A model generated the notes under the pieces. That model worked only from the letters and a program-made list of their open reading frames with translations. It was not told where the DNA came from and did not search any database. The translations under genes and the position numbers were made by a program. DNA of 33,547 bases. Source: an uncultured Nocardioidaceae bacterium (GTDB lineage Bacteria; Actinomycetota; Actinomycetes; Propionibacteriales; Nocardioidaceae). The stretch lies in assembly GCA_902805855.1 (NCBI GenBank), contig CADCUJ010000044.1:1-33547 (forward strand), read 5' to 3'. Positions 1,172 through 18,193 of this stretch are shown here, piece after piece. Position 1 is the first letter of the stretch. Each line of letters opens with the position of its first letter.

Positions 1172-2815
1172 ATGGCCACCACCACCGGCGAACAACCGAC
1201 ACCGCAGGACCGATCGAACGAACGTATCGACGTCGAGCAGGCGCTGCTCGGCGGTTCCACCTACAAGGGGCTCGCCGAGCAGAGCCTGTCGCCTCGTGAA
1301 GAACGTTTCGAGAAGCGCAGGCGCACCACCGGCTTCGTGCTCGCCCCGCTGACAACCATCGTCATCTTCCTGCTCCCACTCGACATTCCGCAGGTGCAGC
1401 ACACCGTGGCGGCCGTGCTGGCCGGTGTCATCGTCGCCTGGGTCACCGAACCGATCCCGATCCCGATCTCAGGTCTGATCGGGGCATCGGTACTGGTCCT
1501 TTTCGGCCTCGGTGGCGAGGAGGGCGCCGACGCGGTGCTGGCGCCGTTCGGCTCGGGCACCATCTTCACCTTCATCGGGGCGTTCATCCTCGCCCAGTCC
1601 ATGCTGAAGCACGGCCTTGCGCGACGCTTCGCGTTCCGCATCCTGTCCTTGCCCGGCGTCGGCAAGAGCACGAGCAGGGTGATCATCGCGTTCGGGCTGA
1701 TCACCGCGCTCCTGTCGGCGTTCGTGTCGAACACGGCCACCGTCGCCATGCTGCTGCCGACCGCGTTGGGCATCCTCGCGGTCATCGCCAACCTGATCCA
1801 GGACCAGCGCCTGGAGCAGGGGGAGATGAGCGGCTTCGACCCCACGCGGCTGCGCGTCGGGTTCGCCATCATGCTGATGCTGGCCTACGGCGCCAGCGTC
1901 GGTGGTCTGCTGACCCCCGTCGGCAGCCCGCCCAACCTGATCGGCCGTGAGCTCATCGAGCAGGCCACCGGCGAGCCGATCCCGTTCGCGAACTGGATGG
2001 CCTTGGCGTTCCCGGTATGTGCGCTGATGTTCGTGGCGCTCGCCCTGATCCTGCTGCTGCTGAACAAGCCGGAGATCAAGCACCTGACCGGGGTCGAGCA
2101 GTACGTGCAGGAGCAGCGAGCGCAGATGGGTCCGCTCTCGCGGGCGGAGAAGAACACGCTGGTCGCGTTCCTCGTCACCGTCTCGATGTGGATCTTCCCC
2201 GGCCTCGTCGCGCTGGTGGCCGGCGGGGACTCGGAGATCTACACGACGATCTCGACGCGGATGGACGAGGGCGTGGTTGCCGTGCTGGGTGCTTCCCTGC
2301 TGTTCATCCTGCCCGTCGACTGGAAGAAGCGCGAGTTCACCTTGACCTGGGGCGACGCGGCGGCGATCGACTGGGGCACCATCGTGCTGTTCGGCTCCGG
2401 GGTGGTGTTCGGCACGCTGCTGGAGGAGTCGGGCCTGGCCGAGACCATCGGCCAGGGCAGCTACAACGCCCTCGGCTTCGGCAGCGCGATCACGATCACG
2501 ATCTTCGCGGTGGTCCTCGCCATCGCCGTCTCGGAGACGACGTCCAACACCGCCTCCGCAGCCGTCGTGGTGCCCATCATCATCCCGCTGGCGGACGCCG
2601 CCGGGGTGAACCCCCTGGTACCCGCCCTGGCGGCGACGTTCGCGGCGTCGTTCGGTTTCATGCTCCCGGTCTCGACTCCGCAGAATGCGGTCGTCTACGG
2701 CTCCGGGGCCGTGCCGATCACCAAGATGATCCGGTCCGGCATCAGCTTCGACATCCTGGGGGCGATCTTGATCCTGATCCTGCTGCCGCTGCTGATCCCC
2801 GTCTTCGTCGGCTAG
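1172..2815 (+). CDS. DASS/SLC13-family anion (dicarboxylate) transporter
   Basis: A 547-residue inner-membrane carrier. After a hydrophilic 50-residue N-terminus come about 11-12 hydrophobic segments. Two Ser-Asn-Thr motifs, SNTATVAMLLP (about 186-196) and TSNTASAAVVVP (about 457-468), sit in the two inverted repeats; in this family they bind the carboxylate substrate and sodium. The stretch LTPVGSPPNLIG (about 250) and a VSTPQNAVVYGSGAVP segment near the C-terminus are also typical. The ATG has GGGAGG 4 nt upstream (1162-1167). Known members move succinate, malate, tartrate or citrate with sodium. The next gene is a tartrate/D-malate-type dehydrogenase 13 nt downstream, so tartrate or malate is a sensible guess, but specificity is inferred from context only. 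Confidence 0.92.
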   Translation: MATTTGEQPTPQDRSNERIDVEQALLGGSTYKGLAEQSLSPREERFEKRRRTTGFVLAPLTTIVIFLLPLDIPQVQHTVAAVLAGVIVAWVTEPIPIPISGLIGASVLVLFGLGGEEGADAVLAPFGSGTIFTFIGAFILAQSMLKHGLARRFAFRILSLPGVGKSTSRVIIAFGLITALLSAFVSNTATVAMLLPTALGILAVIANLIQDQRLEQGEMSGFDPTRLRVGFAIMLMLAYGASVGGLLTPVGSPPNLIGRELIEQATGEPIPFANWMALAFPVCALMFVALALILLLLNKPEIKHLTGVEQYVQEQRAQMGPLSRAEKNTLVAFLVTVSMWIFPGLVALVAGGDSEIYTTISTRMDEGVVAVLGASLLFILPVDWKKREFTLTWGDAAAIDWGTIVLFGSGVVFGTLLEESGLAETIGQGSYNALGFGSAITITIFAVVLAIAVSETTSNTASAAVVVPIIIPLADAAGVNPLVPALAATFAASFGFMLPVSTPQNAVVYGSGAVPITKMIRSGISFDILGAILILILLPLLIPVFVG

Positions 2816-2828
2816 GCGGCGGCGCGAG

Positions 2829-3893
2829 GTGAGCACCCGACCACAGCGCATCGCCGTGATCCCCGGGGACGGCATCGGTCACGAGGTGATCGCGGTGGCC
2901 CGCTCGGTGCTCGACACGGCGGCCGCACGCTACCGGCTCGAGCTGGACTACGAGACGTTCGACTGGTCCTGCCAGCGGTACGCCGAGACCGGGGCGATGA
3001 TGCCGGCCGACGGCGTCGACGTGCTCCGCGGGCACGACGCGATCCTGCTGGGTGCGGTCGGGTGGCCCGGCGTTCCCGACCACGTCTCACTGTGGGGTCT
3101 GCTCATCCCCATCAGGCGCGCCTTCCGTCAGTTCGCCAACGTCCGTCCCGCGCGGGGACTGGCCGGCGTGGACAGCCCGGTGCGCGGCGCCGACCGAATG
3201 GACCTGGTGGTGGTCCGGGAGAACGTCGAGGGTGAGTACTCCGAGATCGGCGGCCGGCTCAACCGCGGCTTCGCCGATGAGATGGCGGTGCAGGAGTCGG
3301 TGTTCACCCGCGCCGGCGTGACCAGAATCGTCCGGCACGCGTTCGAGATGGCCGAGCAGCGCCGGGGACGGCTCACCTCGGCGACCAAGTCCAACGGGAT
3401 CGTGCACACGATGCCGTTCTGGGACGAGGTGGTGCGCGATGTCGCCGACGGCCACCCCGATGTGGAGTGGGAGCAGATGCACATCGACGCGCTCGCCGCC
3501 CGCGTCGTCTTGGACCCTGCCCGCTTTGACGTCATCGTGGGCAGCAACTTGTTCGGGGACATCTTGTCCGACCTGACGGCCGCGGTGTCCGGTTCTCTCG
3601 GGGTGGCGCCGTCGGCGAACCTCGACCCCACCGGAGCGCACCCCTCGATGTTCGAGCCGGTGCACGGGTCCGCCCCCGACATCGCGGATCAACGGATCGC
3701 CAACCCGGTGGCCGCGGTGTGGTCGGCCGCCATGATGCTGGACCACCTCGGTCACGCGGATGCCTCGGCGCACGTCTTGCGTGCGGTGGAGGAGTCCCTG
3801 GCCGATCCCGCGACGCGCACCCGTGACCTCGGCGGCTCCGCATCGACCGAGGAGGCCGGCGCCGCCATCAGCCGTCTGTTCGATCAGGTCTGA
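2829..3893 (+). CDS. ttuC: tartrate dehydrogenase / D-malate dehydrogenase (decarboxylating)
   Basis: A 354-residue member of the isocitrate/isopropylmalate dehydrogenase family, which oxidises a hydroxyacid with NAD and a divalent metal and may then decarboxylate it. Visible landmarks are IAVIPGDGIGHEV (8-20), the substrate arginines R96, R106 and R130 (the last in VVVRENVEGEYS with Y137), the catalytic K187 in SATKSNGI, and metal ligands D220, D244 and D248. The NAD loop FEPVHGSAPDIA is near 275-286. The segment DHVSLWGLLIPIRR (84-97) is the signature I associate with the TtuC/DmlA branch rather than LeuB. The start is GTG at 2829, 13 nt after the transporter stop, so the two are probably co-transcribed. 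Tartrate and D-malate cannot be told apart from sequence alone. Confidence 0.9.
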   Translation: MSTRPQRIAVIPGDGIGHEVIAVARSVLDTAAARYRLELDYETFDWSCQRYAETGAMMPADGVDVLRGHDAILLGAVGWPGVPDHVSLWGLLIPIRRAFRQFANVRPARGLAGVDSPVRGADRMDLVVVRENVEGEYSEIGGRLNRGFADEMAVQESVFTRAGVTRIVRHAFEMAEQRRGRLTSATKSNGIVHTMPFWDEVVRDVADGHPDVEWEQMHIDALAARVVLDPARFDVIVGSNLFGDILSDLTAAVSGSLGVAPSANLDPTGAHPSMFEPVHGSAPDIADQRIANPVAAVWSAAMMLDHLGHADASAHVLRAVEESLADPATRTRDLGGSASTEEAGAAISRLFDQV

Positions 3894-6931: not shown

Positions 6932-8011
6932 TTACGCCGGGCCGCCTCGGCGACCGTGCGTGCGCGGCGGGTCGTAGCCGCCTTCCGGCGGCACCATCTC
7001 ACCCCGCACGCCGAGCAGCCTTATCGGTCGGTCGTCGTCGAGCTTGAGCAGCAGCTCGAGTGCGGTCTGCGCGATCACCGCGGCGTCGTAGGTCGGCTCG
7101 GGCAGCTTGCGGATCCTGGTCACGGTGAAGAACGGTGCGAACCGAACCTTGAGATGCACCCGCGCGCATGCACGGCCCTCTCGGTGCAGGTCCGCCACCA
7201 CCTGGTCGGACAGCGCGCGCAGTGCTCGGGCCACCTCATCGGGGGTGGTCAGGTTGCGCTGAAAGGTCATCTCGCGGCCGTGGGCGCGCGCGACCCAGGG
7301 TGTGTCGTCGACGGTGGCGCTGCTGACGCCGCGTCCCAGCCGCCGAAAGTGCGGCCCCGTGTTGGGGCCGAACTCCTCGATCAGCGGCGCTTCCGGCGAC
7401 AGCGCGAGCTCACGCACCGTGTGGATGCCGAGGGCAGCGAGGCGCGCTGCGATGCGGTTGCCGACGCCCCACAGCGCACTGGTGGGACGCCCACCCATCA
7501 CCTCCATCCAGTTCTCGCGGGTCAGCCGGAAGACGCCGCGCGGCTTCCCGAACTCGGTGGCGATCTTGGCGCGCACCTTCGTGTCGCCGATGCCTATCGA
7601 GCAGTGCAGTCGGGTCGCCTCCAGCACGGCGCCCTGGAGCGCGCGAGCGGTGGCCTCCGGGTCGTCGCTGTCGACGCCGACGAACGCCTCGTCCCAGCCC
7701 AGCAGCTCCACGACGGTGCCAGGGAAGTCCCGCAGGGTGTCCATGACGAGGGCCGACGCCGCCTCGTAGACCGGGAAGTCGACCGGCAGGAAGATCGCGT
7801 CCGGGCAGCGACGTACCGCGGTCTTCAACGGCATCCCCGACCGGATGCCGAACTCGCGGGCCTCATACGACGCCGTCGAGACCACTGCACGCTCGGTCGG
7901 GTCGCCGCGACCGCCGACGACCACCGGACGTCCTGCGAGCTCGGGGTGTCGCAGCACCTCGACCGCCGCGAGGAACTGGTCCAGGTCGACGTGCAGCACC
8001 CAGCTCGTCAT
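6932..8011 (-). CDS. dinB2: DinB2-type Y-family DNA polymerase IV with leucine steric gate
   Basis: A 359-residue Y-family translesion polymerase. Catalytic carboxylates are D9 (HVDLDQF) and D107/E108 (GWDEAFVG). The fingers motif SYEAREFGIRSGMPL (48-62) and the thumb helix-hairpin-helix ALWGVGNRIAARLAALGI are clear, followed by the little-finger domain. ATG at 8011 is used, with AGGA 8 nt upstream; the upstream extension is non-coding in character. Residue 14, where E. coli DinB has the steric-gate Phe13, is leucine (DQFLAAVE). As I recall, mycobacterial DinB2 carries the same Leu14 and readily inserts ribonucleotides. The C-terminus lacks the usual QxxLF-type clamp peptide as far as I can see. 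The gene is divergent from the hydrolase, with a long palindrome between. Confidence 0.92.
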   Translation of the reverse strand: MTSWVLHVDLDQFLAAVEVLRHPELAGRPVVVGGRGDPTERAVVSTASYEAREFGIRSGMPLKTAVRRCPDAIFLPVDFPVYEAASALVMDTLRDFPGTVVELLGWDEAFVGVDSDDPEATARALQGAVLEATRLHCSIGIGDTKVRAKIATEFGKPRGVFRLTRENWMEVMGGRPTSALWGVGNRIAARLAALGIHTVRELALSPEAPLIEEFGPNTGPHFRRLGRGVSSATVDDTPWVARAHGREMTFQRNLTTPDEVARALRALSDQVVADLHREGRACARVHLKVRFAPFFTVTRIRKLPEPTYDAAVIAQTALELLLKLDDDRPIRLLGVRGEMVPPEGGYDPPRTHGRRGGPA

Positions 8012-8061
8012 GAGGACATCCTGACCGGAGGTCGCCCACGCGGCCAGGAACGCCGTGGCGG

Positions 8062-8087
8062 GGAGCACGACCCGCGGGTCGTGCTCC
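8062..8087. repeat. perfect 26-bp palindrome in the dinB2-hydrolase spacer
   Basis: GGAGCACGACCCG (8062-8074) is followed at once by its exact reverse complement (8075-8087). It lies 51 bp upstream of dinB2 and 51 bp upstream of the hydrolase ATG, so it is centred almost exactly in the 126-bp divergent spacer. It could be a dimer-binding operator for both genes, or a hairpin in the dinB2 leader. Confidence 0.7.
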
Positions 8088-8125
8088 GGCGAGGGGCTCC
8101 TCGTAGCGTCTTTGCGAATAAGCGC

Positions 8126-8131
8126 TAGCGT
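8126..8131 (+). promoter_or_regulatory. -10 box of a leaderless promoter (hydrolase gene)
   Basis: TAGCGT ends 6 nt before the ATG at 8138, so transcription is predicted to begin at the start codon; no Shine-Dalgarno sequence is present. The box has the same TAGnnT form and spacing as four others in the window. Confidence 0.5.
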
Positions 8132-8137
8132 GCCCGC

Positions 8138-8842
8138 ATGGAGATCGTCCTCGTCCCCGGCCTCTGGCTGCACGGGTCGTCGTGGGACGCCGTGGTCCCC
8201 CGCCTGGAAGAGGCTGGTCACCGCGTTCAGGCCCTCACCCTTCCGGGGATGGAGAGCAAGGACGCCGATCGATCCGGCGTCACCCTGGCCGACCAGGTCG
8301 ACACGGTGGTCTCCGCGATCGACCGGGCCGGCGGACCGGTCCTCCTGGTGGCCCACTCGGCCGGCAGCGGCATCGCACACTGTGGCGTCGATGCGCGGCC
8401 CGACCGGGTCACTCGGGCGGTCTACGTCGGTGGCTTTCCCTCACCCGACGGCAGCCCGCTGCTCGATGGCCTCCCTGCGCACGACGGCGAGGTGATGATG
8501 CCGGACTGGGTGGAGATGGGCGAGGCGGCGAACGTCGTCGACTTGGACGAGGAGTCGATCTCGCGCCTGTACGCCGAGGCGATCCCGGCCCCGGAGCGGG
8601 TTCTCACCACCCCCGTGCGGCTCCGCGACGAGCGGCGGTACTCCGTGCCCGTCACCGCGGTCTGTCCGGAGTACACGGCGGCCGACCTCCGCGGCTGGGT
8701 GGAGTCCGGCGAAGAGGCGGTGAGCGAGCTGGCGCGGACCGCGGACGTCGAGTACGTCGACCTGCCAGGGGGCCACTGGCCACAGCTCACCCAGCCGGAC
8801 GCCCTCGCTCGGATCATCCTCGACGCCGCAGGCGCGGGCTGA
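8138..8842 (+). CDS. alpha/beta hydrolase
   Basis: A 234-residue alpha/beta-hydrolase of the small esterase / EstA-like type. It starts MEIVLVPGLWLHGSSWD, which carries the oxyanion HG element. The nucleophile elbow is AHSAGSG (nucleophile Ser about residue 74), and the catalytic His lies in LPGGHWPQLTQP near the C-terminus; an acid in the PVTAVCPEYTAADL stretch is likely. There is no signal peptide, so it is cytosolic. The substrate is unknown; relatives act on esters, lactones and C-C bonds. The gene appears leaderless and stands alone, divergent from dinB2 and convergent with dnaB. Confidence 0.9.
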   Translation: MEIVLVPGLWLHGSSWDAVVPRLEEAGHRVQALTLPGMESKDADRSGVTLADQVDTVVSAIDRAGGPVLLVAHSAGSGIAHCGVDARPDRVTRAVYVGGFPSPDGSPLLDGLPAHDGEVMMPDWVEMGEAANVVDLDEESISRLYAEAIPAPERVLTTPVRLRDERRYSVPVTAVCPEYTAADLRGWVESGEEAVSELARTADVEYVDLPGGHWPQLTQPDALARIILDAAGAG

Positions 8843-8849
8843 CCCCAGA

Positions 8850-8879
8850 CGAGCAGCTAGCCAGGCGGGGCGCTGCTCG
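8850..8879. terminator. hairpin between convergent hydrolase and dnaB genes
   Basis: CGAGCAGC (8850-8857) pairs with GCTGCTCG (8872-8879) around a 14-nt loop that itself has short GCC/GGC pairing. It lies just past the hydrolase stop and before the dnaB stop on the other strand. No T-tract follows, so it is a GC-type terminator candidate. Confidence 0.45.
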
Positions 8880-8925
8880 GCCCGCGATGCCGGTGGGCGA
8901 GGCCGCTGATCGGGTGGACCGCCGG

Positions 8926-10305
8926 TCAGCCCACCGCCATGTCGACGAAGCGGGAGTAGTGGCCCTGGAAGGCGACCACGACGTCGCGGGTCGGGCCGTT
9001 GCGGTGCTTGGCGACGATCAGGTCCGCCTCACCCGGCCGGGTCGACTCGCGTTCGTAGGCGTCCTCCCGGTGCAACAAGATCACCACGTCGGAGTCCTGT
9101 TCCAGGCTGCCGGACTCGCGCAGGTCGCTGAGCATCGGGCGCTTGTCGGCGCGCTGCTCCGGGCCTCGGTTCAACTGGGCCAGCGCGACCACCGGGACGT
9201 CGAGCTCCTTGGCGAGCAGCTTCATCTGCCGCGAGAACTCCGAGACCTCCACCTGCCGCGACTCCACCTTCTTGCCGGAGGTCATCAGCTGAAGGTAGTC
9301 GACCACGATCAGCCGCAGGCCGTGTCGCTGCTTGAGCCGGCGAGCCTTGGCTCGGATCTCCATCATCGTCATGTTCGGCGAGTCGTCGATGAACAGCGGC
9401 GCCGAGGACACCTCACCCATCTTGCGCGCGAGCTTGGCCCAGTCCTCGTCGTTCATGTGCCCGTTGCGCATGTGGTTCAGCGGGATCCTCGCCTCCGCCG
9501 ACAGCAGCCGCATCGTGATCTCGTTGCGGGTCATCTCCAGCGAGAACAGCACGCTGGTCATGTTGTGATGGATCGACGCGGCACGGCACAGGTCCAGGCC
9601 CAACGTCGACTTGCCCACGGCCGGTCGAGCCGCGACGATCACCATCTGGCCGCCGTGCAGGCCGTTGGTGAGCTCGTCGAGATCCGCGAACCCGGTGGGG
9701 ACACCGACCATCTGGCCGTCCCGGTTGGAGATCGCCTCGATCTCGTCGAGGGCGGACTCCATGATGTCGCTCAACGGCGCGTAGTCCTCCGACGTCCGCT
9801 TGTCGGTGACGCCGTACACCTCGGCCTGGGCGCGGTCGACCACGTCGTCGACCTGGCCCTCGCCGGAGTAGCCCATCTGGGCGATGCGGGTCCCGGCGTC
9901 CACCAGCCGGCGCAAGATGGCCTTCTCCCGGACGATCTCGGCGTAGTAGCCGGCGTTCGCGGCGATCGGCACGCTCGCCGAGAGCGTGTGCAGGTAGGGC
10001 GCGCCGCCCACCCGGGCCAGCTCGCCTCGTCGCTGCAGCTCGGCGACGACCGTGACCGGGTCGGCCGGCTCCCCCCGTCCGTAGAGGTCGACGACGACGT
10101 CGAAGATGGTCTCGTGGGCCGGGCGGTAGAAGTCGGTGCCGCGCACCGACTCGACCACGTCGGCGATCGCGTCCTTGGACAACAGCATGGACCCGAGCAC
10201 GCTCTGCTCCGCGTTGTGGTCCGCGGGCGGCGTCCGGTCCCCGCCGACCGGACCCGCGTGCATGAAGGTCGCCGCGTTCCAGGCCTCGGCGTCCGTGACG
10301 CTCAT
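8926..10305 (-). CDS. dnaB: replicative DNA helicase DnaB
   Basis: A 459-residue hexameric replicative helicase that unwinds DNA ahead of the fork. The N-terminal domain holds NAEQSVLGSMLLSKDAI (31-47). The RecA-like domain follows, with TGFADLDELTNGLHGG (204-219), Walker A ARPAVGKST (226-234, K232), the Walker B/H3 segment LIVVDYLQLM, and the arginine-finger end AKHRNGPTRDVVVAFQ. No intein interrupts the frame; the Walker A position where many actinobacterial DnaB inteins sit is intact. ATG at 10305 is preferred over GTG at 10311 because GAGG (10314-10311) is 5 nt from the ATG but abuts the GTG. The region upstream carries several DnaA-box-like sequences. Confidence 0.97.
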   Translation of the reverse strand: MSVTDAEAWNAATFMHAGPVGGDRTPPADHNAEQSVLGSMLLSKDAIADVVESVRGTDFYRPAHETIFDVVVDLYGRGEPADPVTVVAELQRRGELARVGGAPYLHTLSASVPIAANAGYYAEIVREKAILRRLVDAGTRIAQMGYSGEGQVDDVVDRAQAEVYGVTDKRTSEDYAPLSDIMESALDEIEAISNRDGQMVGVPTGFADLDELTNGLHGGQMVIVAARPAVGKSTLGLDLCRAASIHHNMTSVLFSLEMTRNEITMRLLSAEARIPLNHMRNGHMNDEDWAKLARKMGEVSSAPLFIDDSPNMTMMEIRAKARRLKQRHGLRLIVVDYLQLMTSGKKVESRQVEVSEFSRQMKLLAKELDVPVVALAQLNRGPEQRADKRPMLSDLRESGSLEQDSDVVILLHREDAYERESTRPGEADLIVAKHRNGPTRDVVVAFQGHYSRFVDMAVG

Positions 10306-10436
10306 CGACACCTCGCAATCACGAATTTTGTGTTCGAACCCAGTAGCTCATCGAGCACCGACAGTGCTGGGGCGAGGCCGCGGACGGGCGCGCGCAGCAG
10401 GGACGTTACGGCTCCGCCGGCAGTCCCGGAAGCCCG

Positions 10437-10526
10437 CCGTCCACAGCCTGCTGTGGACAAGGCGCACCGGGCTGTGGAACAAGCCCCGCCCAGGTGTGCA
10501 CAGCCTGTTCACATCGCTGTGGACAA
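10437..10526. promoter_or_regulatory. cluster of DnaA-box-like 9-mers upstream of dnaB
   Basis: The spacer 10306-10729 has no convincing gene. Within it are TGTGGACAA at 10452-10460 and at 10518-10526, both exact reverse complements of TTGTCCACA, the DnaA box form preferred in high-GC actinobacteria (known). Looser matches are CCGTCCACA at 10437-10445, TGTGGAACA at 10473-10481, TGTGCACAG at 10495-10503 and TGTTCACAT at 10506-10514, with TGTTCACAA further on at 10648-10656. CCGTCCACA and the first exact box face each other 6 bp apart. This may be a DnaA-regulated promoter or a DnaA-binding locus; it is not the usual oriC site between dnaA and dnaN. Confidence 0.55.
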
Positions 10527-10685
10527 AGCAGGACCGTCCTCACCGGCTCACGCGCTGACCTGCGAGAACGCCGTCCCCGCCGTGTGGATCCGGAAAACCT
10601 GGCCACTTTCTGTTCACCGTCCGGCACCTGCCTCCGACTGCCACATCTGTTCACAATGAGGAGCCAATACCATGGATACACACAG

Positions 10686-10715
10686 GTTGCGTCCGGTCTC
10701 ACGCAACTACCGGAC
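10686..10715 (+). other. interlocked inverted repeats in the leader of the first sulfotransferase-like gene
   Basis: GTTGCGT (10686-10692) pairs with ACGCAAC (10701-10707). GTCCGGT (10691-10697) pairs with ACCGGAC (10709-10715). The arms alternate, so the RNA could fold as two alternative hairpins or, with 2 nt sacrificed, an H-type pseudoknot. The second arm ends 2 nt before the GGGAGGG ribosome site at 10718-10724. Confidence 0.5.
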
Positions 10716-10729
10716 GTGGGAGGGAACCC

Positions 10730-12049
10730 GTGGACACCACCGAGGCGACACCTGCTCGGCCGGTCATCTTCTTGCACATCGGAGCGATGAAGACCGGGAC
10801 CACCTTCCTGCAGGCGCTGATGATCGCCAACAAGGACAACCTGGCGGCAGCGGGCTACTGCTTCCCCGGCCGGCGCTGGCACGAGCAGGACAAGGCCACC
10901 CGCGACGTGCTCGGCATGGATCGGGACGACCCGGCGATGCGAGCGAGCACCGAGGGGATGTGGGACACCCTCGCCCACGAGATGCTCACCCACCCTGGTC
11001 GGGCCTCGATCTTCTCGATGGAGTTCTTGAGCTTCGCGAGCCGGACGCAGGCCGCCCGGATCGTCGACTCGCTGTCCGCCGCCGAGGTGCACATCATCCT
11101 CACGGTCAGGGACGCAGTGGGCGCGATACCGGCGCAGTGGCAGACCCACAGCCGCAACCGCGGCAAGGCGTCCTGGCCCGCGTACGCTCGCAGCGCCCGG
11201 CGCTCAGCCCGGCTCGGCCGCTTCGCCCGCGGAGAGGGTGCGCGGATCTTCCAGAAGGGCCAGGGCGTCCCACGGATGCTGCGGGCGTGGGGGTCGGCCG
11301 TGCCGCCCGAGCGCCTGCACGTGATCACCGTGCCACCGCCGGGGTCGGACCCCTCGCTGCTGTGGCAACGCTTCGCAGGCGTGGTCGGGCTCGACCCCGC
11401 GGTGTGCACGCACAGCGCCGGCCGGACGAACCCCTCACTGGGCCTGGCGTCGGCGGACCTGATGCGACGGATCAACCTCGAGCTCGGCAAGATCCCGGTC
11501 AGCGACTACCAGCCCACCCTCAAGGCCAAGCTGGCCAACGGCATCCTCGCCGCCCGCTCCACCATGGAGCCAGGCGCCAAGCTCGACCGACGGACCCGGG
11601 CGTTCGCGCTCGGCTGGAACAAGCGGGTCCGCGCGGCGATCACGCGCAGCGGTGCCGACCTGGTCGGGCACCTCGACGACCTGCCGGTCCGGGCCAGCCA
11701 GACCACCGCCGAGTACGTCGCCAGGCTCAGCGATCCGCCCGCCGAGGACGTCCTGGCCGCCGCGGCGGCGGCCAGAGACGGCCTGGTGAGGCTCGTCGAC
11801 CGTCGCGCGAAGCGGGTGACCCGGCTCGGGGGCCAGGTGCAGGCGACGCTCGACCAGGCGGACGCGGCAGGCGTCCGAGGAGGCTTCACCGTCGGCGCGG
11901 AGGTGCCGACCCCGCAGGGGCGATGGAGTGCGGAGCCGGACCCGGTCGCCGCGGCCGCGGCCGAGCTGGCCGCGCTTGCCCGGCGAGCCATCGACCTGAG
12001 GTCGCAGGCAGCCTCGCTGAAGAACTCGTCGGTTGGGTCGCGCAGGTGA
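10730..12049 (+). CDS. sulfotransferase-like P-loop protein (first of tandem pair)
   Basis: A 439-residue protein whose N-terminus carries the 5'-phosphosulfate-binding loop of PAPS-dependent sulfotransferases, FLHIGAMKTGTTFLQ, with the presumed catalytic K21. A second motif, LTVRDAVGAIPAQWQ, matches the 3'-phosphate-binding strand/helix (R127), but the usual serine eight residues after the Arg is Ala135. The C-terminal third is helical and Ala/Arg-rich with no motif I know. There is no signal peptide, so sulfation, if any, is cytosolic. GTG at 10730 is supported by GGGAGGG 5 nt upstream and by alignment with the next gene. An ATG at 10672 with a perfect GAGGAG site is in another frame. The acceptor substrate is unknown. 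Confidence 0.82.
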   Translation: MDTTEATPARPVIFLHIGAMKTGTTFLQALMIANKDNLAAAGYCFPGRRWHEQDKATRDVLGMDRDDPAMRASTEGMWDTLAHEMLTHPGRASIFSMEFLSFASRTQAARIVDSLSAAEVHIILTVRDAVGAIPAQWQTHSRNRGKASWPAYARSARRSARLGRFARGEGARIFQKGQGVPRMLRAWGSAVPPERLHVITVPPPGSDPSLLWQRFAGVVGLDPAVCTHSAGRTNPSLGLASADLMRRINLELGKIPVSDYQPTLKAKLANGILAARSTMEPGAKLDRRTRAFALGWNKRVRAAITRSGADLVGHLDDLPVRASQTTAEYVARLSDPPAEDVLAAAAAARDGLVRLVDRRAKRVTRLGGQVQATLDQADAAGVRGGFTVGAEVPTPQGRWSAEPDPVAAAAAELAALARRAIDLRSQAASLKNSSVGSRR

Positions 12050-12063
12050 CCGTCGGGTGCTGG

Positions 12064-12069
12064 TAGGTT
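12064..12069 (+). promoter_or_regulatory. -10 box of a leaderless promoter (second sulfotransferase-like gene)
   Basis: TAGGTT lies 7 nt before ATG 12077, inside the 27-nt gap after the first paralogue, and no clear Shine-Dalgarno site is present. It would give the second gene and the MATE gene their own transcript. Confidence 0.45.
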
Positions 12070-12076
12070 CCGCGAT

Positions 12077-13417
12077 ATGCCAGAGCTACGGCGGCTGATC
12101 AGCGGGGCCGTTCGCCGTTCCCGGCCGGTGATCTACCTGCACGTCGGCGCGATGAAGACCGGGACCACATTCGTCCAGCACCTGATGCAGGTGAACCGTG
12201 ACAACCTCCTCGCGGCCGGCTTCCTGGTCCCGGGCGACCGCAACGAGCAGGGGTACGCGACTCGCGACATCCTCGGCACCGCCCACAAGACCCCCGAGAT
12301 GCTGGCCCTGTGCGAAGGGGTGTGGGCGCGACTGGCGGGCCAGATGTTCGCCCACAAAGGCACCGCATCGATCTTCTCCCACGAGTTCCTCAGCTTCGCC
12401 GACAGCGAGCAGGCCCAGCGCGTCGTGGGGTCGCTGGAGGGGGCCGACGTCCACGTGATCTTGACCGTGCGGGACACCAGCGGCGCTCTGCCCTCGCAGT
12501 GGCAGACCAGCAGCCGCAACGGCGGCACGGCCAACTGGCCGAGGTTCGCCAGGAGCGTCCAGAAGGGCGTGCGTGGCAGCGGTCCGCCGCGCGGACAGGG
12601 CGCGCGGACGTTCCTGCGCGCCCAGGACATCCCCCGGATGCTCGAGGTCTGGGGAGCGACGGTCCCACCAGAGCGCCTGCACGTGGTCACGGTCCCGCGT
12701 TCGAGGAACGACCCGCTGCTGCTGTGGAAGCGGTTCGCGAGGGTCGTCGGGGTGGACCCGGAGGTCTGCTCGATCCCCGCGCAGCGTGACAACCCCTCGC
12801 TCGGGTATCCCTCCGCCGAGCTGATGCGGCGCATCAACGTCGCGCTGGGCAAGCTGCCGCCCGGCCAGTACGAGCCGACACTGAAGGCCGAGCTCGCCAC
12901 CCGGATCCTGGCCCTGCGGGCGCCGCTGGAGTACCCACCAGCCCTCGACCTGCGCACCCGCCGGTTCGCGATCAGCTGGAACCGCCGGGTGCGCCGGGCG
13001 ATCCGGGCGAGCGGTGCGCACCTGGTCGGTCCTCTGGGCGACCTCCCGCGCCAACTGCCCGCCGACGTGGTCAAGACGCTGCCGAAACGGCTGACGGTGC
13101 CCACAGACGAGGAGTTGCTCGCGGCCGCCGAGACCGCCCGGGACGGACTGCTCGCCCTGATCCAGCGGCGTGAGCACCATCTCCACCGCTCCGAGGCCAA
13201 CGGCGTGCCGCCGAGCGACGCACCCACGAGCGCACAGCGGTGGCACGACGAGGAGTCGCCGGTCAAGGCGGCTGTCGCCGAGCTCGTCGCATTGGTGCGC
13301 ACGGCCATCGACCTCGACCAGCAGCTCAAGAAGACAGCCGCGCAGCCCGCGCCGGGCCTCGTTGACATCGCCGAGGACGATGTGGCCCCGACCATCCTCG
13401 ACTCCCAGTCCGCCTGA
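12077..13417 (+). CDS. sulfotransferase-like P-loop protein (second of tandem pair)
   Basis: A 446-residue paralogue of the preceding gene, similar along the whole length. It has the PAPS loop YLHVGAMKTGTTFVQ (K27) and the 3'-phosphate motif LTVRDTSGALPSQWQ, in which both R132 and S140 are present, so unlike its neighbour it keeps the complete cofactor-binding set. Shared blocks include the SIFS-x-EFLSFA segment, the PPERLHV strand, the NPSLG stretch and a helical C-terminal third. It follows the first copy after 27 nt and is followed after 10 nt by a MATE exporter, so the three are probably at least partly co-transcribed. The acceptor could be a small metabolite, lipid or glycan; nothing in the sequence decides. 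Confidence 0.83.
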   Translation: MPELRRLISGAVRRSRPVIYLHVGAMKTGTTFVQHLMQVNRDNLLAAGFLVPGDRNEQGYATRDILGTAHKTPEMLALCEGVWARLAGQMFAHKGTASIFSHEFLSFADSEQAQRVVGSLEGADVHVILTVRDTSGALPSQWQTSSRNGGTANWPRFARSVQKGVRGSGPPRGQGARTFLRAQDIPRMLEVWGATVPPERLHVVTVPRSRNDPLLLWKRFARVVGVDPEVCSIPAQRDNPSLGYPSAELMRRINVALGKLPPGQYEPTLKAELATRILALRAPLEYPPALDLRTRRFAISWNRRVRRAIRASGAHLVGPLGDLPRQLPADVVKTLPKRLTVPTDEELLAAAETARDGLLALIQRREHHLHRSEANGVPPSDAPTSAQRWHDEESPVKAAVAELVALVRTAIDLDQQLKKTAAQPAPGLVDIAEDDVAPTILDSQSA

Positions 13418-13427
13418 CGTACCACCG

Positions 13428-14783
13428 GTGAGCTCCGAGACTCCTTCGGGTCAGGCGACCTCACGGGAGCACCGCCGACACGACCGCGAGATCGTCCGGC
13501 TGGCAGTGCCCGCGTTCCTGGCGCTCGTCGCGGAGCCGATGTTCCTGCTCGCCGACTCCGCGATCATCGGACACCTCGGCACGCCCGAGCTCGCCGGTCT
13601 CGGCATCGCCGGTGCCATCATCTCGACGGCCGTCGGCCTGTGCGTCTTCCTCGCTTACGGGACGACCGCCTCAGTGGCCAGGCAGATCGGCGCCGGGCAG
13701 ACGAGGGCGGCGCTGACCCAAGGCATGGACGGCGTCTGGCTCGCGGTCATCATCGGCAGCCTCGCCACCGTCGGTGGAATCGTGCTCTCCGGTGCGCTGG
13801 TCGGACTGTTTCCGGGCGGCCCCGAGGTCACCGAGCACGCCACCACGTACCTGCGCTGGGCCTTCCTCGGCATGGTCCCGCTGCTCGTGATGCTCGCCAC
13901 CACCGGCGTCCTGCGCGGGCTGCAGGACACCCGCACCCCGCTGTACGTCGCCGTGGCGGGAAACCTGGTCAACATCGCACTCAACCTGCTCCTGGTCTAC
14001 GGGCTCGACCTCGGGATCGCCGGTTCCGCGATCGGCACCGTCCTCGCTCAGGCCGCCTCCGCCGCGGTGCTGGTCGCGGTGGTGGTGCGAGCGGTGCGCC
14101 GTGAGGGTGCGTCGCTGCGGCCGGACCTTCCCGGGGTACGGCGGGCGGCTCACGCCGGTGCTGCCCTGGTGGTCCGCACCCTGACCTTGCGCGCCTCGCT
14201 GCTGGTGATGACCTACAGCGCCGCCGCCCTCGGCGCGACCTCGGTCGCGACGAACCAGCTCGCGCTGACCGTGTGGACGTTCCTGGCCTTCGCTCTCGAC
14301 GCGATCGCCATCGCGGCACAGGCGATAACCGGCCGCTTCCTGGGCGCCGGGGACGTGGCCGGCACTCGCACGGTCACCGAGCGGATGATCTGGTGGGGCG
14401 TCCTCAGCGGCGTGGCCACCGGCCTCATGCTCGCGGCCACCGCACCGTTCCTGGGGCCGCTGTTCACCGATGACCCGGCGGTGCACGACCTGCTGTGGCC
14501 GGTGCTGCTGGTGGCGGCGGTGTTCCAGCCCGTCGCGGGGGTGGTGTTCGTGCTCGACGGGGTGTTGATCGGTGCCGGCGACGGGAGGTACCTGGCCTGG
14601 GGAGGGCTGCTGGTCCTGGCCGTGTTCGCCCCGCTCGCCCTGCTCACCGCGTGGGCGCAGCCGGCTGCCGGGTCACCGCTGGTGTGGCTCTGGGTCAGCT
14701 TCGGTGTTGGGTTCATGGGCGCTCGTGCCGTCGTGCTCCTGCGCCGGGCACGCGGTGAGCGGTGGATGGTGACCGGCGCGTGA
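13428..14783 (+). CDS. MATE-family efflux transporter (DinF-like)
   Basis: A 451-residue, roughly 12-helix inner-membrane antiporter. It starts VSSETPSGQ and enters the first MatE module at REIVRLAVPAFLALVAEPMF, continuing with LADSAIIGHLGTPELAGLGI and the loop TTASVARQIGAGQ. The segment TTGVLRGLQDTRTPLYVAV closes the first half, and the second half begins near 250. MATE proteins expel cationic drugs or metabolites using Na+ or H+. GTG at 13428 is used because the longer frame overlaps the preceding gene. From memory a MATE/DinF gene at this place between rplI and dnaB is conserved in Streptomyces. If so, it was here before the sulfotransferase pair and need not be functionally linked to it. 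Confidence 0.92.
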   Translation: MSSETPSGQATSREHRRHDREIVRLAVPAFLALVAEPMFLLADSAIIGHLGTPELAGLGIAGAIISTAVGLCVFLAYGTTASVARQIGAGQTRAALTQGMDGVWLAVIIGSLATVGGIVLSGALVGLFPGGPEVTEHATTYLRWAFLGMVPLLVMLATTGVLRGLQDTRTPLYVAVAGNLVNIALNLLLVYGLDLGIAGSAIGTVLAQAASAAVLVAVVVRAVRREGASLRPDLPGVRRAAHAGAALVVRTLTLRASLLVMTYSAAALGATSVATNQLALTVWTFLAFALDAIAIAAQAITGRFLGAGDVAGTRTVTERMIWWGVLSGVATGLMLAATAPFLGPLFTDDPAVHDLLWPVLLVAAVFQPVAGVVFVLDGVLIGAGDGRYLAWGGLLVLAVFAPLALLTAWAQPAAGSPLVWLWVSFGVGFMGARAVVLLRRARGERWMVTGA

Positions 14784-15130
14784 CGGCGCTGCAGAAGCTC
14801 GCCATGGGCTTGGTGGTGGCCGTCGTGGATCCGAGGTTCGCCGGGTTCGACGGCGTACCCGACGTCTTGGGCTGGCTGTTGGTGCTTCTCGGTCTGCGCG
14901 ACCTGTGGGCTCGGCTCGGTGGCTACCCGATGCTGATGCTCCTGGCGGGCCGCCTCGGCGGTCGTGGCGACGGTGCTGGTGTGGCCCCGGCTGACCGAGG
15001 AGCTGGACGCCGCCGCCGGCTCGAGGTGTCGCGATGGACCTTCGTGGTGCTGACGCTCGCCACCGCTGTGGTGTACGGCGGCCCCTGCAGAGGTAGTCCC
15101 AGGTCGGCGCTCAGGCAGGGACGACGTTGA
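14780..15130 (+). pseudogene. decayed small integral membrane protein gene
   Basis: GTG at 14780 overlaps the MATE stop (GTGA) and opens with TALQKLAMGLVVAVVDP and DVLGWLLVLLGLRDLWARLG, clearly membrane-protein-like. After about 14945 this frame becomes Gly/Arg-rich. The +1 frame over about 14949-15020 instead reads AASAVVATVLVWPRLTEELD, another membrane segment with its loop. The first frame then resumes its membrane character at SRWTFVVLTLATAVVYGG (about 15030-15085) before running out inside the 3' end of rplI. I read this as a multi-helix protein with at least one frameshift, an apparent loss of the middle and a truncated end. Full-length relatives of about 200 residues occur in Nocardioides, from memory. 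Confidence 0.6.
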
Positions 15131-15557
15131 GGTTGACCAGCGCGTCGACCTCGTCGTGCACCTTGACCGTGACCTGGTGCGAGCCCAGCGACTTGATCGG
15201 GTTGCCGAGGACGATCCGGCGCTTGTCGATGCTCGACCCGCCACCCTGCGAGATCGCGGCCGCGATGTCGCCGACGGTGACCGCGCCGAAGAGGCGGCCG
15301 CTCTCGCCGGCCCGGACCGGCAGGTTGAAGGTGGCACCTTCGAGCCTGGCCTTGACCTCGTTCGCCTGGTCGAGGTCACGGACCTCGCGGGTCGCCCGAG
15401 CGGCCTTGATCGACTCGATGGTCTTCTCCCCGCCGCGGGTCCAGCGGATCGCGAAGCCACGCGGGACCAAGAAGTTGCGGCCGTAACCGTCCTTGACCTC
15501 CACGACGTCGCCCGCGGAGCCGAGTCCGTCGACCTCCTGGGTCAAGATGAGCTTCAT
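15111..15557 (-). CDS. rplI: 50S ribosomal protein bL9
   Basis: A 148-residue bL9, normal in length, starting [21 protein letters not shown] with the signature [17 protein letters not shown]. The N-terminal domain binds 23S rRNA near the L1 stalk. A long central helix leads to the C-terminal domain, ending [18 protein letters not shown]. It follows rpsR by 10 nt as the last gene of rpsF-ssb-rpsR-rplI. Its 3' end overlaps the tail of the decayed membrane-protein gene on the other strand. Confidence 0.98.
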
Positions 15558-15567
15558 GTCTGTCCCC

Positions 15568-15804
15568 TCAGCGTGCGGTGGAGGTGTAGGGCAGCAAGGC
15601 GACCTCGCGCGCGTTCTTCACCGCGGTCGCGACGTCACGCTGGTGCTGCACGCAGTTGCCGGTGACCCGGCGTGCGCGGATCTTGCCCCGGTCGGAGATG
15701 AACTTGCGTAGCAAGGTGGTGTCCTTGTAATCGATGTAGGACACCTTGTCCTTGCAGAACTGGCAAACCTTCTTCTTCGGCTTGCGGAGTACGGGCTTGG
15801 CCAT
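15568..15804 (-). CDS. rpsR: 30S ribosomal protein bS18 (zinc-ligand form)
   Basis: A 78-residue bS18 that pairs with bS6 on the 30S platform. It starts [20 protein letters not shown] and contains [20 protein letters not shown] and the [15 protein letters not shown] core. C14, C17, C51 and H54 form a plausible zinc site, so this is the cysteine-containing (C+) version; many actinobacteria keep a second Cys-less copy elsewhere for zinc-poor growth. The ATG at 15804 has GAGGAGC about 8 nt upstream; the longer frame upstream overlaps ssb and is not real. A strong hairpin lies just before the ribosome site. Confidence 0.97.
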
Positions 15805-15818
15805 CGTGGTGCTCCTCA

Positions 15819-15834
15819 GGAGGCCTCGGCCTCC
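15819..15834 (-). promoter_or_regulatory. hairpin just upstream of the rpsR ribosome-binding site
   Basis: On the mRNA strand GGAGGCC and GGCCTCC (15834-15819) are separated by 2 nt and form a tight stem. The last bases, CTCC, can instead pair with the GGAG of the rpsR ribosome site across a TGA loop, so the two folds compete. This arrangement could control rpsR and rplI translation; no factor is implied by the sequence itself. Confidence 0.4.
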
Positions 15835-15895
15835 GGTAGCTCGGTGAGTGTCGGCGTGGGTCGTTCGGACGGGCGTGCTGGGGTGGGCGTGGCGC

Positions 15896-16453
15896 TCAGA
15901 ACGGCGGGTCGTCGGAAGAGCCGCCCCCTGGGCTGGCCCCGGTCGCCCACGGGTCACCCGCGCCCTGGCCACCGCCTTGCTGGCCACCGCCTTGCTGGCC
16001 ACCCCAGCCGCCACCGGAGGACTGGGACGCCCAGGGGTCGTCCCCGCTCGAGGAGCTGTTGTAGCCACCGCTGCTGCCGCCTCCGGAGCGGGTGGTCTTG
16101 GTGACCTTGGCGGTGGCGTACTTCAGGCTCGGGCCGACCTCGTCGACGTCGATCTCGAAGACCGTGCGCCGCTCTCCCTCGCGGGTCTCGAACGTCCGAG
16201 ACTTCAGGCGTCCTTGGATGACAACGCGCATGCCCCGCTGCAGCGACTCGGCGACGTTCTCGGCCGCCTGCCGCCACACCGAGCACGACAAGAACAGTGC
16301 CTCGCCGTCCTTCCACTCGTTCGCCTGCTTGTCGAAGGTCCGCGGCGTCGAGGCGATGCGGAAGTTGGCCACCGCCGCACCCGAGGGGGTGAAGCGCAGC
16401 TCCGGGTCGTCGACCAGGTTGCCGACGATGGTGATGGTGGTCTCGCCTGCCAT
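15896..16453 (-). CDS. ssb: single-stranded DNA-binding protein
   Basis: A 185-residue SSB. The OB-fold domain (about 1-115) starts [20 protein letters not shown] and includes [26 protein letters not shown] and [14 protein letters not shown], all standard for actinobacterial SSB. A Gly/Gln/Ser-rich flexible tail follows, containing a GGQQ-type repeat and two DPWA motifs. The protein ends SSDDPPF, the acidic tip that recruits replication and repair proteins. In DNA the tail shows tandem copies of a 15-bp unit near 15968-16005. It sits between rpsF and rpsR as in many bacteria; co-transcription ties it to ribosomal-protein expression. Confidence 0.98.
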
Positions 16454-16503
16454 GTTCAGGTCTCCAGTCTCGAGGTCGCGCCGGCCAGTGCCGCCGGGCG
16501 GGG

Positions 16504-16794
16504 TCAGCGAACGTCGGGGCGCACGACCTTGGTGCGTAGCACCGACTCGTTCAGCGTCAGCTGACGGTCCAGCTCGCGCACCGTGGCCGGCTCCGCCTGA
16601 AGCTCGATGACGGCGTAGATGCCCTCGGTGTTCTTGTCCATCTCATAGGCCAGCCGTCGCCGGCCCCAGATGTCGACGGACCCGACCGAGCCGCCGTCCT
16701 TGCGGACCACGTTCAGGTAGGTGTCGAGCGAGGGCGCGACAGTGCGCTCTTCGAGATCGGGGTCGAGGATGACCATGACTTCATATGCACGCAA
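16504..16794 (-). CDS. rpsF: 30S ribosomal protein bS6
   Basis: A 96-residue bS6, first gene of the rpsF-ssb-rpsR-rplI operon. It begins (TTG)[18 protein letters not shown] and contains [20 protein letters not shown], the standard core. TTG at 16794 is chosen because family members begin M-R[15 protein letters not shown] and because GGAG lies about 7 nt upstream. A GTG four codons earlier directly abuts the AGGAGG and would add METAL-type residues not seen in relatives. bS6 binds bS18 and 16S rRNA on the 30S platform. A -10-like TACCCT at 16952-16947 would give a long leader of about 145 nt. Confidence 0.96.
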
Positions 16795-17007
16795 AGCGGT
16801 CTCCACCTCCTCTGGACTCGGACGGCCACGGTGTCTCCGCGGCAGGAGGGCTGTGCGTTCGTCGCGCCGCCTCCGCGCCGAAGCGGTGCAGGTGGTCGAC
16901 GTACCGGGCTCGAGCCGCGCTGGTGCGGGTCTGCGCCGGTCGACACAGGGTAGCAGCGGACACGCCGAGGGCTAAATCCTTGTCCCCAGCCGTCGCCGGA
17001 GAGGACA
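16795..17007. promoter_or_regulatory. divergent spacer with the rpsF promoter and long leader
   Basis: On the minus strand TACCCT at 16952-16947 resembles a -10 box; transcription from about 16940 would leave roughly 145 nt of GC-rich leader before rpsF. In other bacteria this leader can hold an RNA motif bound by the bS6:bS18 complex. I could not identify the conserved CCG-bulge structure with confidence. No gene is seen in the spacer. Confidence 0.35.
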
Positions 17008-17286
17008 GTGGTCTGTGTGAACACCGCGGTCACCGGCGAGGGTCGACACCATCCGCTGCAGAGCGCGCTGGCTGCATCCACGGTCGTTCTCGGGCTGGTC
17101 GCGGTTCTCGGGCTGGCCTTGGGCTCCTGGAACCTCGCGATGTGGGTCGGGCTGAGCGGCGCCGTCGTGGCCGCGTACGACGAGTTCATCGCGCAGACCT
17201 CCGGCGAGCGGCGGGTCATCCTGGCCGGCTTCCTGCTCTGCCTGGTCGCCATCGCCGTGTCGATGTCGAACGGCGCGCTCTTCTAG
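17008..17286 (+). CDS. small integral membrane protein (92 aa)
   Basis: A 92-residue hydrophobic protein with a short polar N-terminus and probably three membrane helices: STVVLGLVAVLGLALGSWNL, MWVGLSGAVVAAYDEFIA and VILAGFLLCLVAIAVSMSN. GTG at 17008 has GGAG 6 nt upstream (16998-17001); GTG at 17017 is a possible alternative. It is divergent from rpsF and lies 67 nt before the endonuclease IV gene, which has its own leaderless promoter. I recognise no named family. The conserved-looking AYDEFIAQTSGERR loop between helices 2 and 3 would be the part to search with. Confidence 0.75.
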   Translation: MVCVNTAVTGEGRHHPLQSALAASTVVLGLVAVLGLALGSWNLAMWVGLSGAVVAAYDEFIAQTSGERRVILAGFLLCLVAIAVSMSNGALF

Positions 17287-17340
17287 TCGCGCCCCGCTGG
17301 TCGCGCCGCCGGCGCCGGTGGTGGCGGTGGTGGCGGCACC

Positions 17341-17346
17341 TAGGCT
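17341..17346 (+). promoter_or_regulatory. -10 box of a leaderless promoter (nfo-femX-racemase operon)
   Basis: TAGGCT lies 7 nt before the ATG at 17354. It supports that ATG over an in-frame GTG at 17318, which would lie upstream of the predicted transcript. Confidence 0.5.
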
Positions 17347-17353
17347 GGGGGAC

Positions 17354-18193
17354 ATGCCGCAGACCGCAGCGACGCTGACCATCGGAGCCCACGTCGACCA
17401 GGGCGATCCCGTCGGCGCGGCGCTGGAGCGCGGGGCCACCCTGACCCAGTTCTTCCTCGGAGACCCCCAGGGGTACAAGGGACCGGAGGTCGCCTACGAC
17501 GGTGGAGCAGATGCGCTGCGCCGGGCCGCCGACGACAGCGGTGTCGGCATGTACGTGCACGCGCCGTACATCATCAACGTCGCCACCACGAACAACCGGA
17601 TCCGGATACCGAGCCGCAAGCTGCTCCAGCAACACATAGACGCTGCGGCCGCAGTCGGAGCCAGAGGGTTGATCGTGCACGGCGGTCACGTCGACAGAGC
17701 CGGCGAGGATGACGAGCTGCTGGAGAAGGGCTTCGACAACTGGCGCAAGGCCGTCGAGCAGACCGACCTGAAGCTTCCGCTGTTGATCGAGAACACTGCC
17801 GGTGGCAGCAACGCCATGACCCGCTACCTGGACCGCATCGGCCGGGTCTGGGACGCGATCTCGGCCGCCGAGGGAAGCGACATGGTGGGCTTCTGCCTCG
17901 ACACCTGTCATGCCCATGCCGGAGGCAACGACTTGTCCACCATCGTCGAGGCGGTGGTGAAGATCACCGGCAAGGTCGACCTCGTGCATGCCAACGACAG
18001 TCGGGACTCGTTCGACTCCGGAGCCGACCGGCACGCGAACCTGGGCAAGGGCAACATCGACCCCGACGAGCTGGTGGCGGTGGTGCGGGACGCCGGTGCG
18101 CCGGTGATCGTGGAGACCCCGGGCGGCGCCGACGGCCACCGCGCCGACTTCGCCTGGCTGCGCGACCGGCTCGCCCAGGGTCGGTCAGCGTGA
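17354..18193 (+). CDS. nfo: deoxyribonuclease IV (apurinic endonuclease)
   Basis: A 279-residue AP endonuclease 2 family enzyme that cuts 5' of abasic sites in base-excision repair using a three-zinc centre. Metal-binding motifs appear in the expected order in the TIM barrel: YVHAPYIINVAT, GLIVHGGHVD, LLIENTAGG, CLDTCHAHAGG, DLVHANDSRD with ADRHANLGKGNI, and VIVETPGG at the C-terminal end. ATG at 17354 is preferred because homologues begin close to TIGAHVDQGDP and a -10 box sits 7 nt before. The stop overlaps the GTG of the next gene (GTGA), so translation is coupled. Length is normal. Confidence 0.95.
   Translation: MPQTAATLTIGAHVDQGDPVGAALERGATLTQFFLGDPQGYKGPEVAYDGGADALRRAADDSGVGMYVHAPYIINVATTNNRIRIPSRKLLQQHIDAAAAVGARGLIVHGGHVDRAGEDDELLEKGFDNWRKAVEQTDLKLPLLIENTAGGSNAMTRYLDRIGRVWDAISAAEGSDMVGFCLDTCHAHAGGNDLSTIVEAVVKITGKVDLVHANDSRDSFDSGADRHANLGKGNIDPDELVAVVRDAGAPVIVETPGGADGHRADFAWLRDRLAQGRSA

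Follow-up and report, generated by a model that had tools for sequence, protein, structure and literature searches.

Reports of sulfated polysaccharides from bacteria are rare. The accessible part of a recent report calls such polymers uncommon outside cyanobacteria and states that their production by Actinoplanes awaits verification (PMC13390465, 2026), and six bacterial genera that have them are counted in the available part of a review (PMC11625862). The same part of that review gives the features shared by polysaccharide sulfotransferases, namely a beta-sheet between helices with a PAPS-binding strand-loop-helix, a lysine (or arginine) in the loop, a serine in the helix that binds the 3'-phosphate, and a histidine or glutamate base; it also reports an R-x7-S spacing for Sulfotransfer_1, and cautions that bias in the Pfam seeds may let bacterial sulfotransferases go undetected (PMC11625862). 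Among actinomycetes, the wps-1 cluster of Actinoplanes missouriensis is described, in the accessible part of its report, as a set of polysaccharide genes with two predicted sulfotransferases, one of which has a heparan-sulfate sulfotransferase domain, and with a glycosyltransferase that groups with galactofuranosyltransferases (PMC13390465). Here we describe two tandem genes, ST1 and ST2, located between dnaB and a MATE efflux transporter gene in an uncultured Nocardioidaceae bacterium (assembly GCA_902805855.1, 2.64 Mb, designated G000 among our genomes). They lie in its contig 44 (CADCUJ010000044.1), of which the whole analysed stretch of 33,547 nucleotides is referred to as the window. With moderate confidence, we read their products as sulfotransferases dependent on 3'-phosphoadenosine 5'-phosphosulfate (PAPS), from a family that lacks a database model and is nearest to glycan sulfotransferases, acting on envelope glycans, and the genes as an insertion at the start of an old MATE transcription unit.

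ST1 and ST2 have features of glycan-type sulfotransferases

The two genes are intact and co-directional. ST1 (10730..12049, + strand) starts at a GTG codon and encodes 439 amino acids; ST2 (12077..13417, + strand) follows after 27 nt, starts at ATG and encodes 446. Their products are 54% identical across 422 aligned columns (E 2e-146). The initial annotation had described two full-length paralogues with PAPS-binding loops between dnaB and a MATE gene, the second of them 10 nt from the latter, and our analysis agrees on each count: both open reading frames (ORFs) are complete, both proteins carry the motif KTGTTF[LV]Q, and 10 nt separate the ST2 stop codon from the GTG at 13428 with which the MATE gene starts. 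The sulfotransferase label given to the pair fared differently by method, failing with sequence models and holding with the predicted fold of ST1.

Neither ST1 nor ST2 matched any Pfam or NCBIfam model at its cut-off. The model PF13469 (Sulfotransfer_3) scored 12.2 bits on ST1 (E 0.21) vs a cut-off of 27, did not match ST2, and had no match at E 0.001 across the whole genome of the window. We aligned 92 members of the family, comprising both window proteins and 90 of 140 collected homologue ORFs picked by rank and length. Weak matches (E <=0.01) to Sulfotransfer_3 were found in 12 of them and to Sulfotransfer_1 (PF00685) in 3, and the NCBIfam search over the same set returned a single stray match. 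That Pfam models miss this family fits the remark on biased seeds in the available part of the review cited above (PMC11625862). A phmmer search with ST1 against PDB sequences returned nothing up to E 1, and ST2 had no match at E 1e-5 among 72,556 plasmid records. A profile of A2 gave three matches at E <=1 (best E 0.0006, entry m4D2), which we judged to be chance helical matches and discarded. In the open-licence literature, we found no published description of the family.

The AlphaFold model of ST1, built on the 92 sequences, reached a mean pLDDT of 92.7 and a pTM of 0.90. It predicts a beta-sheet flanked by helices, with a PAPS-binding strand-loop-helix; ST2 is joined to this prediction through its sequence. 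In a Foldseek search of the PDB, the sole match at E <=0.001 was 3rnl (E 6.4e-4), a sulfotransferase from Alicyclobacillus, and nine of the first ten rows were sulfotransferases. With VIA-align 2, rows 1 to 15, with Z between 16.2 and 14.8 across 224-251 residues and 10-14% identity to ST1, consisted of NDST1, 3-OST chains and 3rnl; these were followed in lower rows by other sulfotransferases (Z <=11.8), SULT and TPST enzymes (<=11.1) and nucleotide kinases (8.8-8.9). Based on the predicted model, the best reading of ST1 and ST2 is that they use PAPS and are sulfotransferases of the glycan type, belonging to a family for which neither Pfam nor NCBIfam has a model.

Compared with the heparan sulfate N- and 3-O-sulfotransferases (NDST1, 1nst; HS3ST1/3/5), ST1 shares the predicted fold over residues ~8-323, with Z 14.8-16.2, as well as the loop lysine and the arginine of the 3'-phosphate site. 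It differs from them in being bacterial, in its low identity, in having an alanine for the 3'-phosphate serine, and in its extra C-terminal helices (338-438). The likeness to 3rnl (VIA-align 2 Z 15.4) comes with 13-17% identity, and that chain has 247 residues and a function known from its entry title. Unlike the ST loci, wps-1 is a Wzx/Wzy-type exopolysaccharide cluster, likened here to the ST family only through its description in the accessible part of that report (PMC13390465).

The loop lysine (K21 in ST1, with an equivalent lysine in ST2) is kept in 88 of the 92 aligned members, and the 3'-phosphate arginine (Arg127) in all 92. By the R-x7-S spacing, the 3'-phosphate serine position is occupied by serine in ST2 and by Ala135 in ST1, which in this respect appears to depart from the textbook site, like most of its family. 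Glu98 is kept in 90 members and replaced by Asp in the other two, making it a candidate for an active-site role.

As for the donor, the initial annotation had reported no adenylylsulfate (APS) kinase gene nearby. We likewise found no APS-kinase match on the contig of the window; the genome does contain a full-length match elsewhere, on contig C48 (E 7.3e-57), which makes PAPS synthesis plausible in this organism, although away from the ST pair.

The family is expanded in Nocardioidaceae and recurs beside glycan genes

ST1 matches ten sequences in the genome of the window, itself included. Across 30 relatives, 17 of the 19 nearest family genomes have between 2 and 17 ST1-type matches, and three of the 11 genomes from the rest of the order have one each. 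The densest array, of nine ST matches with a GlfT2 gene, lies on a 48 kb contig (G006:C147:34759-48075). We surveyed 97 ST-centred loci, 75 from named genomes and 22 other regions; some of them overlap or repeat one contig (e.g. L037/G003, L038/G018, L040/L048/L138). Neighbouring genes were taken from a simple ORF caller and named by similarity clusters, with approximate start codons, and some cluster members may be opposite-strand artefacts, as several of the NTP-transferase rows look to be. An ST was called in 74 of the 75 named-genome loci, 36 of which have a LicD-, GlfT2-, GT2-, NTP-transferase- or Fe-ADH-type neighbour within 5 kb, and 12 an acyl-CoA-dehydrogenase-type neighbour. Pfam, run on representatives, named the recurrent neighbours as LicD with a methyltransferase, NTP_transferase, Fe-ADH_2, GlfT2, polysaccharide pyruvyl transferase, PLD-like and Exo_endo_phos.

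Seen from the glycan genes, the linkage across the genomes of these relatives is strong. LicD-like genes (those like the LicD/methyltransferase protein of locus L121) have an ST within 3 kb in 10 of 15 cases, with 0.15 expected, and GlfT2-domain genes in 7 of 16, with 0.18 expected. As a control, none of 16 strong APS-kinase matches from genomes G000-G018 (weak partial ones left out) had an ST within that distance.

The phylogeny places the window pair close to members with such neighbours. In a tree of 64 rows, from which one ST locus (L116) was left out by the motif filter, ST1 and ST2 cluster with the one ST gene that Nocardioides jiangsuensis carries in the same dnaB-MATE slot (91/82), and rows from G059, G048 and Nocardioides sp. 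1609 are adjacent to this cluster. A larger clade around it, of 15 rows (95/87), includes eight rows from six loci with glycan-type neighbours: Fe-ADH (G1PDH-type) and NTP-transferase genes in all eight, GlfT2 in seven and LicD in five. In a tree of 26 rows, ST1, ST2 and their N. jiangsuensis counterpart make up a trio (84/83) without inner resolution, and constraint tests rejected neither a single clade of all four slot genes (approximately unbiased test, p 0.196) nor ST1 with ST2 alone (p 0.338). These trees indicate that the duplication that gave rise to ST1 and ST2 was not recent.

The STs as a probable insertion in an old dnaB-MATE slot

The MATE gene (13428..14783, + strand) is a clear member of its family, with 149.7 bits to PF01554 (cut-off 24.9) and 274.4 to TIGR00797 (cut-off 147.4). 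Its divergent partner, dnaB, encodes the replicative helicase (8926..10311, - strand; Pfam DnaB and DnaB_C). We searched for MATE, dnaB and ST1 in one draw of 120 family genomes, measuring gaps as distances between protein matches rather than annotated genes. MATE was matched in 111 genomes and dnaB in 116. The two were within 10 kb of each other in 102 of the 111, always divergent, and in 89 of these 102 the gap was at most 755 nt, too short for an ST gene. Most family genomes thus keep MATE beside dnaB without an ST. Larger gaps were seen in 13 genomes, of which three, all from one genus (that of the window, G002 and G003), have ST genes there; no ST was called in the slots of the remaining ten. 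In the other nine MATE-bearing genomes, the two genes were far apart (six) or on different contigs (two), and G001, the fourth genome of the window's genus, was uninformative, as it has no dnaB match and its MATE match reaches the contig end.

The spacer between dnaB and ST1 (10312..10729) retains part of the ancestral arrangement. By blastn, approximately 10427-10600 resembles the dnaB-MATE spacer of two genomes without an ST, G014 and G046, at 72-76% over 50-109 nt; these two spacers are also matched by those of the other two ST-bearing genomes. From this similarity we infer that the STs came in downstream of the old intergenic region and ahead of the MATE start. An insertion next to an older MATE gene had been the alternative put forward in the initial annotation, and the survey of the slot supports it.

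Conservation of the block at 10427-10600, which precedes the MATE unit, extends beyond one genus in the family; at gathering scores, Rfam had no match in the window, this block included. Neither composition (GC 0.67-0.74 over 8000-18000) nor repeats gave any sign of a mobile element, and the long direct repeats are the two ST genes themselves.

Other cargo was seen at the same place. An ABC ATPase and permease gene occupy the slot in eight genomes, G011 and G044 from one genus and G035, G051, G061, G068, G074 and G080 from another (loci L141 and L145-L151), with a MarR-like regulator called near the cassette in at least five of them; G081 has an AMP-binding enzyme and G108 a DUF929 protein. 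Pfam was run on one of the ATPases, on two regulators and on one permease, which stayed below cut-off (E 2.8e-4); all other labels come from sequence likeness and gene order. The divergent spacer has thus taken different cargo by genus: an ABC exporter cassette, STs, an AMP-binding enzyme or a DUF929 protein.

Alternative explanations

The initial annotation had also suggested a sulfation-and-export unit, in which ST1 and ST2 would sulfate a small molecule and the adjacent MATE transporter would pump the product out. This we consider quite improbable. Such a unit would be consistent with the ST-MATE junction, which stays short (~6, 10 and 22 nt) in three genomes of the window's genus even though identity within the genus is 75-76% for MATE and 50-53% for ST. 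It would also be consistent with the terminator scan of 10280-15120, in which no terminator-like site was found. A promoter scan of that stretch was likewise negative, the sigma-70 pattern being probably ill-suited to such GC. Because the junction was kept despite this divergence, transcription of MATE in this genus probably comes through from the STs; this would be co-transcription, which is not evidence of shared function. The distribution of the genes argues against the unit. Only three of the 19 nearest family genomes, all three from the window's genus, have an ST no more than 5 kb from MATE, and the other 16 have none at that distance. The two genes do not travel jointly across genomes, being together only in this genus, and a MATE-like gene was called in only two of the 97 ST-centred loci, again both from it. 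Tandem pairs occur elsewhere without MATE, an outcome the annotation had itself said would count against the unit: tandem ST pairs in G011 (1686776-1689270) and G044 (4293065-4295538) are each ~260 kb from the MATE gene (at 1951254 and 4555112, respectively). Together with the 89 genomes in which MATE sits beside dnaB with no room for an ST, and the two other genera whose slot carries an ABC exporter cassette, this history makes transporter adjacency weak evidence for a biosynthesis-export unit.

Several observations also weigh against our own reading, that ST1 and ST2 are PAPS sulfotransferases acting on envelope glycans. A common fold alone is no proof of the reaction. The position of the 3'-phosphate serine is Ala in 59 of the 92 aligned members, ST1 among them, Ser in 32 and Thr in one; for the catalytic base, Glu98 is only a candidate; and three proteins match the CysQ (3'-phosphoadenosine 5'-phosphate phosphatase) model, all below its cut-off. 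The co-localisation test assumes random placement and independent genomes, so its probabilities are too small, although the effect is large, and 9 of the 16 GlfT2 and 5 of the 15 LicD-like genes lack an ST within 3 kb. Genomic context is mixed, too: other ST groups recur beside acyl-CoA dehydrogenase or lyase/carboxylase-type genes (assigned by sequence likeness, not Pfam), the pair's own locus has no glycan genes of the counted kinds, and such neighbours were found at only two of the eight other ST loci of the window's genome (C76 and C14). The bare locus, the six other loci of the genome that lack counted glycan genes and the acyl-CoA neighbourhoods would all suit PAPS sulfotransferases with a different acceptor, be it a lipid, a protein tyrosine or a free metabolite. 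We regard this as unlikely, given that the fold comparison ranks glycan sulfotransferases over SULT, TPST and the Mycobacterium enzymes STF1 and STF9, and that the linkage to LicD-like and GlfT2 genes is family-wide. The least probable account is that these are P-loop proteins whose sulfotransferase reaction was lost or altered, with another donor or with binding as their sole activity. The sub-threshold scores of all database models, the prevalent alanine and the lower-scoring matches to nucleotide kinases fit this account; the near-invariant loop lysine and Arg127, the PAPS enzymes at the top of the fold matches and the weak Sulfotransfer_3 matches in 12 members point the other way.

The sulfotransferase reading suggests the following course of events. 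In the ancestry of the genus, an ST gene would have settled in the divergent dnaB/MATE spacer, past the old intergenic region and just ahead of the start codon of MATE; the genome of the window now has a tandem pair at this place. The separate APS kinase of the genome would make the donor, PAPS, from which ST1 and ST2 would probably move sulfate onto cell-envelope glycan intermediates, as their kin in GlfT2- and LicD-type loci would. MATE would be an older resident, now probably co-transcribed with the STs, and not a dedicated exporter.

Other features of the window and the slot

The surroundings had been described as conserved for housekeeping genes, which is what we observed: besides dnaB upstream, tblastn gave matches to rplI (15114-15557), rpsR (15571-15804), ssb (16088-16453) and rpsF (16507-16818) downstream, all on the minus strand. 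In relatives, a small membrane-protein gene comes after MATE. At this place in the window (14780-15100, + strand), tblastn and three-frame translation show its start (14780..14878, + strand), which overlaps the MATE stop; homology ends after ~28-33 residues, and the frame of this copy appears to be broken.

At three MATE genes of ST-free loci (L139, L140 and L142), a TAnnnT-like box can be seen by eye ~6 nt before the start codon, raising the possibility of leaderless transcripts. No such box is visible before the MATE gene of the window, and a TAGGTT sits 7 nt before ST2. In nine of the 120 genomes (G013, G037, G052, G053, G056, G057, G059, G062 and G065), a long open frame contains the dnaB match in two pieces, interrupted near residue 240; an insert that keeps the frame, for instance an intein, would produce this pattern.

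Further upstream (1172-3893, + strand), a transporter of the DASS type, named "sodium:sulfate symporter" by Pfam, has as its neighbour a gene of the isocitrate/isopropylmalate dehydrogenase type. We set the transporter gene (1172-2815) aside as a sulfate supplier for sulfation because of this neighbour, which we take to suggest a transporter of dicarboxylates rather than of sulfate.

Implications for the Nocardioidaceae cell surface

Of the 19 nearest Nocardioidaceae genomes, 17 contain this family, which the sequence models miss; many copies per genome are frequent, and so are neighbouring genes of the galactofuranan or LicD type. Its occurrence among cell-surface sugar genes hints that Nocardioidaceae may sulfate surface polymers. 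More tentatively, and with our confidence here falling short of even, the ST family, with up to 17 copies per genome, could write a sulfation pattern on galactofuranose- and LicD-modified envelope polymers, giving a sulfated Gram-positive surface; the pair between dnaB and MATE would then be one dispersed set, perhaps now transcribed from where the MATE promoter used to act. Should the glycan reading be true, sulfated envelope polymers could be common across a large family of soil bacteria.

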